The notes beneath the pieces are model-generated. The model had not been told where the DNA came from. It saw nothing but the letters and a program-made list of their open reading frames with translations, and ran no database searches. A stretch of DNA of 30,481 nucleotides from a virus. The stretch is taken from positions 1 to 30,481 of IMG/VR virus record IMGVR_UViG_3300013132_000174; one strand, given 5' to 3'. The position numbers and the translations under genes were made by a program. This document shows positions 16,522-30,022 of this stretch, piece after piece (positions within the stretch are counted from its first letter, which is position 1; every line of letters begins with the position of its first letter).

Positions 16522-16710
16522 ATGCTAAAAGTAGACGTTACTAAATCTCAAAATTTGGAAAAAGCCTTAAAAACTCTTAAAGGTAAGGTTATTAAAACCA
16601 AACAAAACGAAATATTACGTAATAGACTTCAATATACCAAGCCATCAGTAACAAAAAGAGCTCAAAAATTGAAAGCTAAGTACGTTCAATCGAGAAAACC
16701 AAACGATTAA
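16522..16710 (+). CDS. rpsU: Phage-encoded ribosomal protein bS21
   Basis: A 62-residue, very basic protein. It matches bS21 along its length: a first strand MLKVDVTKSQNLEKALKTLK (bacterial: K-V-x-E-N-x-x-x-x-A-L-K-x-F-K), then the central ILRNRLQYTKPSVTKR (bacterial: E-L-R-x-R-x-x-x-E-K-P-S-x-x-R-K), and a basic tail with AKYVQ. KPSVTKR followed by YVQ is the Bacteroidota style. bS21 is loosely held on the 30S platform next to the anti-Shine-Dalgarno region; in Flavobacteriia it helps hide that region. Phage bS21 could replace the host copy and shift initiation toward phage messages. It is the only plus-strand gene within the head block, and its stop shares the bases TTAA with the stop of the converging gene. 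Confidence 0.9.
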   Translation: MLKVDVTKSQNLEKALKTLKGKVIKTKQNEILRNRLQYTKPSVTKRAQKLKAKYVQSRKPND

Positions 16711-25267: not shown

Positions 25268-25945
25268 TTATGAGTTTAGTCCGTTTGGTCCACCAAGTGC
25301 TACCGAATCAGCTTGAACGACAGCTCTACCTTGACCATTTGAATAAATCGCGTGTGGTAGACTTGATGTTGTGGTTGAACCACTACAATTTATACAATCT
25401 TCATAATTGATTGTCCCTGTATTAGTATTTGTTGTACCACCTGTTAAAGCGTATGGGCTTGGTGTTGGTGATGGCGTTATTGTTGGTGTAACTGTATTTG
25501 TTGGTGTTACAGTTTGAGTTGGTGTTGGTGTCACATTTGGTGTACCAGTATTTGTTGGTGTAGGTGTTGGTGTACCACTTCTTGTCGGAGTCACATTTGG
25601 TGTTCCTGTTTGAGTTGGTGTTGCCGAATTAGTTGGTGTATTAGTTTGTGTCGGTGTTACCGATGGGGTAATACTTGGTGTTGGTGTTACAGTTGCTGTT
25701 GGTGTTGGTGTTGGATTTGTTGAACACGCACTACAACTTCCAAATTGAGATGATACCGCAATAACACTATCTGTATATGGCTCTCTACTTGTACCTACAA
25801 TAAAATAACAACCATCAGTTGTTGCGGTTGTTGCAAAGTCTAAATAATAATAACCCCCGATTTGTACGTTATAAAAATTGTCTATACCACCAATTGTTGT
25901 GGAACTATCGGCACATGAGGTTAATTGATACGAGATTACAGCCAT
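25268..25945 (-). CDS. Pro/Thr-repeat protein, probable surface or fibre-linked
   Basis: A 225-residue protein. Residues 1-75 form a small Cys-containing beta domain ([20 protein letters not shown] to FGSCSACS; cysteines at 11, 46, 71 and 74). Residues 77-164 are almost only Pro, Thr, Ser, Asn and Gln in TPT/TPS/TQT units. The C-terminal 60 residues return to a mixed sequence with CINC. Such Pro/Thr stalks are common in virion surface proteins of phages infecting Bacteroidota and would form an extended, possibly glycosylated rod. There is no signal peptide, as expected for a virion protein. It sits within the head block ahead of a large acidic protein, so a head decoration or fibre role is inferred. 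Confidence 0.6.
25454..25717 (-). repeat. Low-complexity Pro/Thr coding repeat
   Basis: About 88 codons of Pro/Thr units with a loose 6-12 base period (GTTGGTGTT-type on the plus strand). The copies are degenerate. Repeats of this kind can gain or lose units by slippage, so the stalk length may vary between related phages. Confidence 0.8.
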
Positions 25946-26770: not shown

Positions 26771-27013
26771 TTATAATTTTTTGTATTTGTAAGTCTTAGC
26801 AATTTTAGAATTAAAGTACTTTCCTTGAGATTCAGATAATCTAAATTCCGCATAAACTTCATGAGGAACTCCATCGTATTCATACCGACTTCCGTTTTTA
26901 AATTCTGCAATCATTTTATTATCGGCAGTATCATATTCAGTTCGAGATAAATTACTTGAGTTTATCTCGTTGTAAATTTTAGTTCCTTTAATTTCTTGTC
27001 TTCCCGTTCCCAT
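26771..27013 (-). CDS. KTSC-domain protein
   Basis: An 80-residue protein. Residues about 20-76 follow the KTSC domain: S-R-x-x-Y-D at the start, IAEFKNGSRYEYDGVPHEVY (strand, G-x-x-Y-x-Y, then VP and helix), then SESQGKYFNSKIAKTYKYKK. KTSC domains are small units found alone or attached to other domains in bacteria and phages; a nucleic-acid or lysyl-tRNA synthetase link gave the family its name, but the function is unproven. The KTSC start (ATG at 27011-27013) lies four bases after the previous gene's stop, so it is cotranscribed with it. Confidence 0.8.
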   Translation of the reverse strand: MGTGRQEIKGTKIYNEINSSNLSRTEYDTADNKMIAEFKNGSRYEYDGVPHEVYAEFRLSESQGKYFNSKIAKTYKYKKL

Positions 27014-27017
27014 AATA

Positions 27018-27332
27018 TTATTTGTTTAAAGGTGTTTCTAAATCAATCTTATAAAAAAACTCAGATAAGTAATTAGAAAATTCCGTTCTATTCTCATCAG
27101 TCAACATCCCATATCTATATAAGTTTTTGTTTAAATTTTCTATCATTTTAAGTAATAGGTCTCTTTGTAAGTACATACTATTATCCATGCCAACACCTTT
27201 TTCAAGTTGACTATCTTTAATCCCATTTTCTTGGAACATGTGTCTTAGTCTATAGTATTCACCAAGTAGTTCATCAAAATCTTTTTTTAAGACTGTATGT
27301 AAAAATTTTTTCCACGGAGATTCCATTATCAT
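27018..27332 (-). CDS. Small helical protein of unknown function (104 aa)
   Basis: Not recognised. A 104-residue helical protein with a Lys-rich start and a Tyr/Arg/Glu-rich body (LLGEYYRLRHMFQENGIKDS) and a closing amphipathic helix. Two starts are possible: ATG at 27330-27332 or the third codon at 27324-27326. The first lies inside a TATTTATG octamer that may be a promoter; if the octamer is used, the second start is more likely. It directly follows a terminator, so it begins its own unit, with the KTSC gene next. Confidence 0.55.
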   Translation of the reverse strand: MIMESPWKKFLHTVLKKDFDELLGEYYRLRHMFQENGIKDSQLEKGVGMDNSMYLQRDLLLKMIENLNKNLYRYGMLTDENRTEFSNYLSEFFYKIDLETPLNK

Positions 27333-27372: not shown

Positions 27373-27855
27373 TTAGGGTTTCATTTTTCGTAGTTGGTCT
27401 CGTAATTCAATCGCTCTTTCAAACTCTTGTTTTTCAATACACTCTTTCAATTCATTTTCAATCGTTTTGATTTCTTCTTGGTCTTTTTCGTAATTTTTAA
27501 TTTTATCTCTTAGATAAATCGCCAAATGAAAATCTTCATTTTTAACCGCAACATCAAGTTGTTTTTTCAAAGACTCCAACGAACCTTTTTCAGGTGCGTT
27601 TCTTTGATAATTTCTTTTAGGTAAATCAAATGAAGATGTTGTTACAATATACGTAATTGAACCATCAGGTGATTTAAAAGTTTGTTTTTCCCAATCACCA
27701 TTCTCATCGTTTCCAATTTCAGTTTTAGTTTCCATGGATTCAAATTGTTTAAACAATGAATGTTCTCCAAACATTTCATTTAATTCATCCATCATTTCTT
27801 TTAGACTTCTTCTGTTACCTCTGTAAGGATTTCCACCAAAAAAATTTTCAAACAT
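27373..27855 (-). CDS. UVR-motif protein, possible Clp adaptor (McsA-like in part)
   Basis: A 160-residue protein. Residues 1-35 are a Gly/Asn/Met-rich start (MFENFFGGNPYRGN) with a helix. Residues 55-75 look like a beta pair. The C-terminal half carries two UVR motifs: LESLKKQLDVAVKNEDFHLA with IYLRDKI (94-119), and IENELKECIEKQEFERAIEL with RDQLR (133-156). UVR motifs occur in UvrB/UvrC, in ClpC and in the ClpC activator McsA, where they mediate protein contacts. McsA zinc Cys pairs are absent here. It is divergent from a ClpC-like gene that has its own UVR motif, so a partner or adaptor role is likely but not shown. An alternative is a UvrA/B-binding repair factor. Confidence 0.65.
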   Translation of the reverse strand: MFENFFGGNPYRGNRRSLKEMMDELNEMFGEHSLFKQFESMETKTEIGNDENGDWEKQTFKSPDGSITYIVTTSSFDLPKRNYQRNAPEKGSLESLKKQLDVAVKNEDFHLAIYLRDKIKNYEKDQEEIKTIENELKECIEKQEFERAIELRDQLRKMKP

Positions 27856-27893
27856 AATAGTATTATTTAATTTTTATTTTTTATCTTTGTAAT

Positions 27894-27901
27894 CGTAAAT
27901 A
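27894..27901 (-). promoter_or_regulatory. Weak octamer TATTTACG upstream of the UVR gene
   Basis: On the minus strand GTATATTTACG lies about 38 bases before the start at 27855. It has the TATTTA core, and TATATTTA also resembles a host -7 element with the last base changed, but no -33 TTTG is correctly spaced. A weak candidate only. Confidence 0.25.
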
Positions 27902-27928
27902 TACAAAAACGTGCCAAATAGTATATAC

Positions 27929-27973
27929 TGACATTTTGTCATATTTTACTAATTCATATATGACATATTGTCA
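27929..27973. promoter_or_regulatory. Paired palindromic operators TGACA-N3-TGTCA
   Basis: Two 13-base palindromes of the same design stand at 27929-27941 (TGACATTTTGTCA) and 27961-27973 (TGACATATTGTCA). Start-to-start spacing is 32 bases, close to three DNA turns, so both face the same side of the helix. The second ends two bases before the -33 element of the clp promoter. This is what a dimeric repressor or activator with cooperative binding would need. The regulator is not in this window. Confidence 0.7.
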
Positions 27974-27975
27974 AT

Positions 27976-28006
27976 ATTGTTTATTGGAAAGAAAATTGTA
28001 TATTTG
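27976..28006 (+). promoter_or_regulatory. Bacteroidota-type promoter of the ClpC-like gene
   Basis: ATTG at 27976-27979 and TATATTTG at 27999-28006, spacer 19 bases, fit the host pattern (TTTG, TAnnTTTG) with one mismatch in the -33 box. The ATG is at 28028, giving a leader of about 15 bases without a Shine-Dalgarno sequence. Confidence 0.65.
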
Positions 28007-28027
28007 TGGTGTAATAAAAAATAGAAT

Positions 28028-30022
28028 ATGATTGAATCTATGGATAACAACGAGGGTAAAGCCCAACCCAAGAAAAAAACAGGCGGGACACCGGTTTTGG
28101 ACAACTTTAGTAAAGATTTAAACAAGATGGCTGCCGAGGGTAAATTAGACCCAGTGATTGGTCGAGAGATGGAAATTCATCGAATTGCACAAATTCTATC
28201 TCGTAGAAAGAAAAATAACCCAATTATTATTGGTGAACCTGGTTGTGGTAAAACCGCAATTGTTGAGGGTTTAGCCATGAAAATTCACAATGGTGAATGT
28301 CCTCGTAATTTACGTGATAAACGTATTGTATTGTTGGATTTAACCTCAATTGTTGCCGGTACTAAGTATCGAGGTCAATTTGAAGAGCGTATGAAAGTAA
28401 TCATCGAAGAACTTTCTGAAAATCCTGATATTGTAATTTTTATTGATGAGATTCATACAATTGTTGGGGCAGGAAATGCATCAGGTTCTATGGACGCGTC
28501 AAACATCTTTAAACCAGCACTTGCTCGTGGTGAAATTCAATGTATTGGTGCAACCACATTGGACGAATACCGTACTAACTTTGAAAAAGATGGTGCTCTT
28601 GAGCGTCGTTTTCAAAAAGTGGTTGTTGATTCTCCAAGTAAAGAAGAAACCCTTAAAATTATTACTAACGTAAAAGACAAATATGAAGAGTACCACAAAG
28701 TAACTTACTCACCCGAAGTGTTAGATATGTGTGTTAATTTGGCTGACCGTTACATTACTGACCGTGAGTTTCCTGATAAAGCTTTTGATATTATGGATGA
28801 AGTGGGTGCTCGCTCACAGGTAGAGGTAAAAATTCCTGAATCAATTGAAATCCTAAAACAAAAAGCTGTTGAAATGAAACAGTTAAAAATGGATGTTGTT
28901 AAAAAACAGGATTATGAGCAGGCGGCTGAAATTAGAGATAAAGAAAAAAAGTTATTGGAACGTTTGGAACTTGAAAAGAAAAAATTTGAAGAGGAACAAT
29001 CTAAGAACCGTAAAGTAATTGACCCTGAATTAGTTTTGACTGTTGTGTCCTCAATGACCAAAATTCCTGTTAACAAATTGAGTGTTGATGATAAAATGTC
29101 ATTAGTTGGTTTGGAAAAAACTTTGATGGAGGACGTTATTGGTCAACAAGAGGCGGTGACTAAAATCTCAAAAGCAATCCGTAGAAATCGTCTTGGTATT
29201 AAAGACCCTAACAAACCAATTGGCTCGTTTATCTTTTTGGGTTCAACCGGTGTTGGTAAAACTCACTTAGCTAAACAATTAGCTAAACAAATTTTTGGTT
29301 CGTCAGATGCTTTGATTCGTGTTGATATGAGTGAATATCAAGAAAAACACACCATTTCTCGTTTAATTGGTTCGCCTCCAGGTTATGTTGGTTATGAAGA
29401 AGGTGGACAATTAACTGAACAGGTTAAAAACAAACCATATTCGGTAATCTTGTTTGATGAGGTTGAAAAGGCAAATAAGGAAATTTTTCACACACTTCTT
29501 CAAATGTTGGATGAAGGTCACCTTACTGATTCTTTAGGTCGTAAAATTAACTTCAAAAATTGTTTGATTATTATGACATCAAACATTGGTACTAAAAAAC
29601 TTCAAGACTTTGGAACAGGTATTGGTTTCTCAAGTAATTCATATTCAAATGAAGAGCAGAAAAAAGAAATCTTGAAAAAAGAAATGAAAAACTATTTTTC
29701 ACCTGAGTTTTTAAATCGTATTGATGAGACCATTGTTTTTAATTCTCTAAATGAAGAATCAATTAAAAAAATTGTTGAGATTGAGGTTAAGAAACTAATT
29801 TCTCGTTTGGGTGAGTTGAAATTAAACTTTAAGTATGATGATAAATTGATTACTCATATATCTAAAGTGGGTTTTGACGATACCTACGGAGCTCGTCCAA
29901 TCAAACGAGCTATTCAGGACCAAGTTGAAGACTTGGTATCAGAAGAAGTTTTAAACGGAAATGTTGTTGAGGGTAAACAATATTCCTTATCGGTAAAATC
30001 GGATAAGGTATTTATCAAATAA
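28028..30022 (+). CDS. ClpC-like AAA+ unfoldase lacking the N-terminal domain
   Basis: A 664-residue double AAA+ ATPase; bacterial ClpC has about 820-850. The protein begins at the ClpC linker ([20 protein letters not shown], 20-39), so the substrate/adaptor-binding N-domain is missing. D1 has Walker A GEPGCGKT (69-76), Walker B IFIDE (137-141) and arginine finger ERRF (192-195). A short middle domain holds a UVR motif ([16 protein letters not shown], 289-304). D2 has Walker A GSTGVGKT (405-412), Walker B LFDE (475-478) and a sensor 2 GARPIKR. The loop GTGIGFSS carries IGF (532-534), matching the ClpP-binding I/L/V-G-F loop, so it may dock onto host ClpP. Arg codons are mostly CGT, unlike many neighbours. 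It is divergent from the UVR-motif gene. Confidence 0.9.

Follow-up and report, generated by a model that had tools for sequence, protein, structure and literature searches.

An N-domain-less ClpC-type unfoldase and a divergently encoded double-UVR protein in phages: a candidate co-regulated protein quality-control module

The window (the whole stretch of viral DNA that was analysed, 30,481 bases and probably a fragment) contains T4-like terminase, portal, prohead protease and capsid genes. A gene for ribosomal protein bS21 (16522-16710, plus strand; PF01165, E = 2.8e-9) lies within the capsid/terminase block on the opposite strand, which is the arrangement of freshwater Bacteroidota bS21 phages (PMC9723584). 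The matches of the large terminase (to Flavobacterium phage immuto and to huge phages) point the same way, and the window is assigned to a large lake-water Bacteroidota phage. The moraphages, which have a Clp ATPase among their common genes (PMC12619734), may be relatives of these phages or overlap with them. Beside the structural genes, a minus-strand gene (25268-25945) encodes a protein with a long threonine-proline repeat, and similar repeats are found in the relatives L013 and L030.

The genes considered here comprise two divergent neighbors: a minus-strand gene for a 160-residue UVR protein (27373..27855) and, across a spacer of 172 bp, a plus-strand clp gene for an unfoldase of 664 residues (28028..30022). 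The coordinates, strands and lengths given for both in an earlier note, made from the sequence without database searches, were correct. The position divergently upstream of clp, here termed the partner slot, has a conserved flank that includes a gene for an 80-residue KTSC-domain protein (26771..27013, minus strand; PF13619, E = 4.5e-17), found in most relatives inspected, and a 104-residue open reading frame that adjoins the UVR gene (27018..27332, minus strand). Relatives were taken from IMG/VR, where the related contigs are fragments: the Clp query returned at least 597 relatives, and a tree was built from 81 sequences, namely the window and its best relatives among these. The clade that holds the window is referred to as clade A and its sister as clade B; additional loci were assigned to one or the other by their best BLAST hits.

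The 664-residue protein matches the Pfam families AAA, AAA_lid_9, AAA_2 and ClpB_D2-small, with Clp_N absent from the 25 families listed for it, and its best PDB match is S. aureus ClpC. Phage residue 12 is aligned there to ClpC residue 152, so that the protein starts at the linker before D1, as had been proposed from the sequence; as engineered ΔN ClpC keeps the linker from residue 147 on (PMC12583610), the phage protein begins almost at the cut chosen by experimenters. A wrong start codon that conceals an N-domain was rejected because 82/82 homologues start no more than about 50 residues before the linker reference point, and the gap to the UVR gene is too short to hold a missed N-domain. 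Clp_N was likewise not found in 14 related records in which Clp itself was found.

The other parts that had been noticed earlier, both Walker sets, arginine-finger motifs, an M-domain UVR motif and an IGF loop, are all present. Walker A reads GEPGCGKT in D1 (residues 69-76, 28232..28255; kept in the 82 homologues) and GSTGVGKT in D2 (residues 405-412, 29240..29263; from the motif comparison of homologues), the UVR motif of the M-domain spans residues 283-314 (28874..28969; from the alignment to 6em8), and the IGF tripeptide of the ClpP-docking loop occupies residues 532-534 (29621..29629), all on the plus strand. The catalytic and pore motifs are intact across the 82 homologues, and both pore loops are seen in the window's Clp. 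The docking loop, GIGF in the window, is under constraint: [IVLM]GF is invariant in 82/82 homologues while the other loop residues and the loop lengths vary. Compared with the ClpC family, the protein thus has the two AAA+ modules (with Walker A/B, arginine fingers and pore loops), the short UVR M-domain and the hydrophobic-G-F loop for ClpP; it lacks the N-terminal adaptor-binding Clp_N domain, and it is therefore a ClpC-type variant rather than a canonical ClpC. Identity as a ClpB/Hsp104 disaggregase was rejected, as the M-domain is a short UVR one instead of the long two-wing one and the ClpP loop is present; the score of the phage protein with the ClpB equivalog model falls below the cut-off. 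In one relative (L138:1298-3836, minus strand) clp is in two pieces, with the break within the D1 Walker A: one reading frame ends GEPG-CVLGDTIIEIE..., and the next begins MKITIKDFFELV... and runs to ...GIISHN-CGKT. Judged from these sequences, this resembles a naturally split intein whose N-part is very short, and there is no Pfam intein match at E = 0.001.

The opposite-strand neighbor had been described as carrying two UVR motifs, which is borne out by two PF02151 matches (E = 3.4e-14). The first, at about residues 93-126 (27478..27579), corresponds to two stretches of the Pfam match, with F109, R116 and D117 conserved; the second, at residues 127-159 (27379..27477), is the best Pfam stretch, with F145, E146, R152 and D153 conserved. 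From AlphaFold2 models and the family alignments A1 and A2, the protein consists of an N-terminal helix, a predicted small beta region (of low confidence) and the two UVR motifs; the models of the protein alone have pLDDT values of 61-65 and a pTM of 0.3, and are weak outside the UVR helices. A fold search with this weak model gave no match at E = 0.001 or below. Homology of the N-terminal half to Hsp20, hinted at by a similar start and a 'DG' turn, found no support when profiles were compared with the slot Hsp20s (hhalign probability 2-4%), and there was no match to PF00011 (the Hsp20 alpha-crystallin family). A search of 50,697 annotated phage records gave no relative of the UVR protein, and a one-pattern scan for full-length bacterial homologues gave only generic UVR stretches among the matches listed.

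The association of the two genes is conserved. The UVR gene lies divergently upstream of clp, about 60-210 bp away, in 39 of the 81 tree sequences. When loci were instead retrieved from IMG/VR by the UVR protein alone (n = 80), Clp was the divergent neighbor in 75, comprising 73 within 400 bp and two in which Clp is split or overlaps through the choice of start; three of the remaining five end at a contig edge and the last two (L163 and L165) have a UVR-dnaK operon instead. The adjacency is not chance, and the conserved neighborhood that the earlier note had proposed to look for in phage genomes is thereby found. The distances between UVR proteins and between the corresponding Clps are also correlated (Mantel r = 0.66). 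In the two exceptions (L163:3986-6308 and L165:3986-6299) dnaK follows the UVR gene by 1 bp in a single operon, with no Clp within 4 kb. Of the proposal that the UVR protein is Clp's own partner, the gene association is observed, and contact as an adaptor is suggested by the sequence motifs discussed below.

Not every clp gene faces a UVR gene. Among the 81 tree loci, counted with no correction for shared ancestry, the slot holds UVR in 39, the small heat-shock protein Hsp20 in 18, DnaK in one and none of the three in 21. Hsp20 and the UVR protein never occur together, either in the tree loci or in 30 longer records. On the Clp tree the UVR label changes nine times, seven of them forced by supported branches, and the Hsp20 label seven times, six of them forced. 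The most economical reading is that the UVR protein and Hsp20 are alternative partners of one Clp, and the 21 loci with an empty slot, mostly in the sister clade, indicate that the partner is dispensable. HSP70 as a general member of the module was rejected (0/14 records).

The spacer of the window contains two exact copies of the palindrome TGACAnnnTGTCA, at 27929..27941 (TGACATTTTGTCA) and 27961..27973 (TGACATATTGTCA), which are 32 bp, or three helical turns, apart. Its core, GACAnnnTGTC, was found in 71 of 77 distinct UVR-type spacers, against 0.05 expected from Markov-resampled spacers. Where a spacer has two copies, they lie 21, 29-32 or 41-43 bp apart in 33 of 37 cases. These distances approximate two, three or four turns of the helix, as would suit proteins that sit on the same side of the DNA. 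The palindrome occurs at 15/18 Hsp20 loci and 1/21 empty-slot loci and, within clade B, at 15/16 slot-bearing loci in comparison with 1/20 empty ones; shared ancestry is left uncorrected in these operator counts apart from the comparison within clade B. It also stands 85 bp upstream of the UVR-dnaK operon in L163 and L165, again as TGACAnnnTGTCA. As the palindrome tracks a filled slot, it marks the partner gene and, via the partner gene, the divergent promoter. A genome-wide regulon that includes clpP was rejected, because none of 16 clpP genes has the palindrome upstream; matches inside clpP are coding coincidences, and a further match common to the relatives G031 and G032 is also in a coding region. 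We found no paper containing the operator string. A candidate Clp promoter element, TATATTTG (27999..28006, plus strand), was recognized by its position and by its match to TAnnTTTG, which we take to be the Bacteroidota -7 consensus. Separately, G032 encodes an RpoD-like sigma factor of 266 residues (L190:1916-2716, minus strand; judged by eye), a possible phage promoter-selectivity factor.

Distances between Clp and ClpP were collected for 50 records with both a Clp placement and a ClpP search, 33 of them in clade A. All 21 clade A contigs that extend 30 kb or more beyond Clp on its downstream side carry a ClpP on the same strand, and every clade A record in which ClpP is lacking stops within about 13 kb of Clp; across all 23 positives, ClpP lies 11.7-29.7 kb downstream. 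The relatives' ClpPs have visible Ser, His and Asp motifs. In the nearest relatives (L002, L102, L103 and L106), whose Clps are 89-90% identical to the window's, the distance is 22.6-22.7 kb, which would put the expected clpP past the right edge of the window; the window itself has no ClpP, its edge preceding that position. We consider a phage-encoded ClpCP in clade A to be probable. In contrast, none of eight clade B contigs, which are fragments, has a ClpP within 31-58 kb downstream of Clp. As clade B keeps the UVR protein and the docking loop with no ClpP within reach, the link between the UVR protein and a phage ClpP is not a strict one. The huge phages LR756502, LR745206 and LR756508 encode an N-domain-less ClpC and one to three ClpP genes per genome, showing that the combination is broader than the window's lineage; no UVR protein or Hsp20 was found within 4 kb of their Clps. 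In L187, L189 and L083, a tRNA-like gene is seen by eye within the 150 bp before clpP.

The residues Y296, E297, R303 and D304 of the phage Clp correspond to F436, E437, R443 and D444 of S. aureus ClpC. The aromatic residue, E and R are kept in 82/82 Clps and D in 81/82 (with one D-to-N change), and both UVR motifs of the partner have nearly the same aromatic-E...RD pattern as the M-domain; at the E position of its motif 1, the family mostly has E and the window has H. In S. aureus ClpC the N-domain stabilizes the resting state, in which rings meet through their M-domains, a contact that requires F436 at the tip of the M-domain; ΔN ClpC binds ClpP yet forms head-to-head rods without degradation, and disrupting the M-domain contact as well renders it active (PMC12583610). 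In plastids, the adaptor ClpF and other proteins with a UVR domain are enriched with ClpC (PMC8889267), and the adaptor ClpS can act on ClpC1 via the M-domain without the N-domain (PMC6274998).

Taken with the gene arrangement, these observations suggest how the module may work. The unfoldase has lost the domain that, in bacterial ClpC, maintains the resting state and brings in host adaptors, and escape from host adaptors would follow from the published ClpC biochemistry (PMC12583610). Its GIGF loop would dock on the ClpP of the same phage, which by comparison with relatives should lie about 23 kb downstream. Even without the N-domain, contacts through the M-domain UVR should keep the rings locked head-to-head, like those of ΔN ClpC, and the double-UVR protein would most likely bind that UVR motif and break the lock. 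It would thus be both adaptor and activator, bringing in substrates through its N-terminal part. In many relatives Hsp20 takes the place of the UVR protein while the operator stays the same, which points to substrates that are produced in infection and are misfolded or tend to aggregate. A dimeric regulator presumably binds the operator that is common to both divergent genes. We are highly confident of the anatomy of the gene pair. As a whole, a natural ΔN ClpCP-type protease with a co-regulated chaperone or adaptor partner gene seems to us somewhat better supported than not; that the UVR protein acts through the M-domain of Clp we hold to be an evenly balanced proposition.

Among the competing explanations, the one that survives best is a disaggregase or assembly chaperone without proteolysis, in which the unfoldase would take misfolded structural proteins apart while the UVR protein or Hsp20 serves as holdase, ClpP being an optional add-on of one clade. 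It would account for Hsp20 or DnaK in the slot, for the UVR-dnaK operon and for the position of Clp next to the structural gene region, and both the sister clade, with no ClpP within reach, and the Hsp20 slot suit a pure disaggregase as well. However, ClpB-type disaggregases have no ClpP-docking loop, whereas the loop is invariant here in both clades, and ClpP accompanies Clp in every testable clade A contig; we regard this explanation as unlikely. The earlier idea of action without ClpP accordingly loses ground in clade A, given its own ClpP and the invariant loop, and retains a possible place in the sister clade. Slightly less likely is that the UVR protein makes no contact with Clp and shares only the operator with it, as an independent stress-type chaperone or a partner of host UvrB/UvrC, DnaK or ClpC. 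UVR motifs do occur in UvrB/UvrC, the UVR gene stands with dnaK and no nearby clp in L163 and L165, and the operator goes with the slot gene, not with Clp; the Clp neighbor at 75 of 80 UVR loci, and the UVR motif of Clp's own M-domain with its matching contact residues, argue against it. We think it improbable that the UVR protein is an inhibitor, which clamps the M-domain so that Clp stays inactive until it is required or counteracts host ClpC as an anti-adaptor. Repression in ClpC does use the same M-domain surface (PMC12583610), the two UVR copies might allow a pair of M-domains to be clamped, and bacterial ClpC also has a UVR motif, but replacement by Hsp20 under the same operator suits a helper better and many loci have no partner at all. 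Finally, capture of host ClpP, whereby the phage unfoldase with the UVR protein as adaptor would turn host proteolysis to phage use, agrees with the invariant loop and the conserved UVR protein and could apply to the sister clade, where no phage ClpP is seen within reach, but the redirection of host ClpP proposed in the earlier note is not the best reading and is very doubtful overall, given that clade A has a ClpP of its own in 21/21 testable contigs.

The reading that we prefer, a ΔN ClpCP-type protease with a co-regulated partner, suggests that such phages run a private protein quality control during infection. A more far-reaching version, advanced tentatively and as less probable than the module itself, is that a separate UVR protein, competing for the M-domain lock, has taken over the control of ClpC from the lost N-domain, and that a small heat-shock protein with the same operator can stand in as partner; the two would then be interchangeable substrate-delivery modules of one stress-type regulon. 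The UVR/small heat-shock protein exchange ties substrate holding and adaptor function to one slot, and raises the testable question of which proteins phages degrade in infection.

Clp ATPase, Hsp20, DnaK and ClpP are already listed as gene content of large phages in PMC7824862, PMC9723584 and PMC12619734, including ClpP, ClpA and Hsp20 for jumbo phages (PMC7824862). What appears new, in that no description was found in the available text of these three papers, is the missing N-domain, the UVR partner, the exchange of partners and the operator; 'UvrB' does not occur in the main text of PMC9723584 or PMC12619734, and no literature was found on phage UVR-domain proteins with Clp in metagenomes. 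The bS21 phages and moraphages are the same or related aquatic Bacteroidota phages with Clp and chaperone genes (PMC9723584, PMC12619734). Clp ATPases, ClpP and Hsp20, until now a loose gene content, here belong to a well-delimited module under common regulation whose partner family is conserved.

Several known systems resemble parts of this module. McsA, the activator of the arginine kinase McsB that is encoded with ClpC in Bacillota, is also a small UVR protein next to clpC, and among NCBIfam families it matches the UVR region best, at E = 2e-9 though far short of the cut-off for the family. Unlike McsA, the phage protein lacks zinc-binding cysteine pairs (it has 0-2 Cys over its full length), has two UVR motifs and an unmatched N-terminal region, and is encoded divergently. 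We know of no relation between the phage UVR protein and ClpF-type proteins beyond the UVR motif. Plastid ClpF and other UVR-domain interactors are likewise UVR proteins associated with a ClpC unfoldase, but they have other domains and belong to eukaryotic plastids (PMC8889267). SPO1 Gp53 is a phage adaptor-like protein that acts on host ClpC, binding it mainly via the N-domain (PMC6873191), whereas here the phage supplies its own ClpC without that domain. Bacterial ClpC with ClpP, as in S. aureus and B. subtilis, has the same two AAA+ rings, short UVR M-domain, pore loops and ClpP-docking loop; in comparison, the phage version is a natural ΔN form, with no N-domain in 82/82 homologues. It is thus the natural counterpart of the engineered ΔN ClpC (PMC12583610), and lends itself to testing directly how unlocking of ClpC works in the absence of the N-domain.
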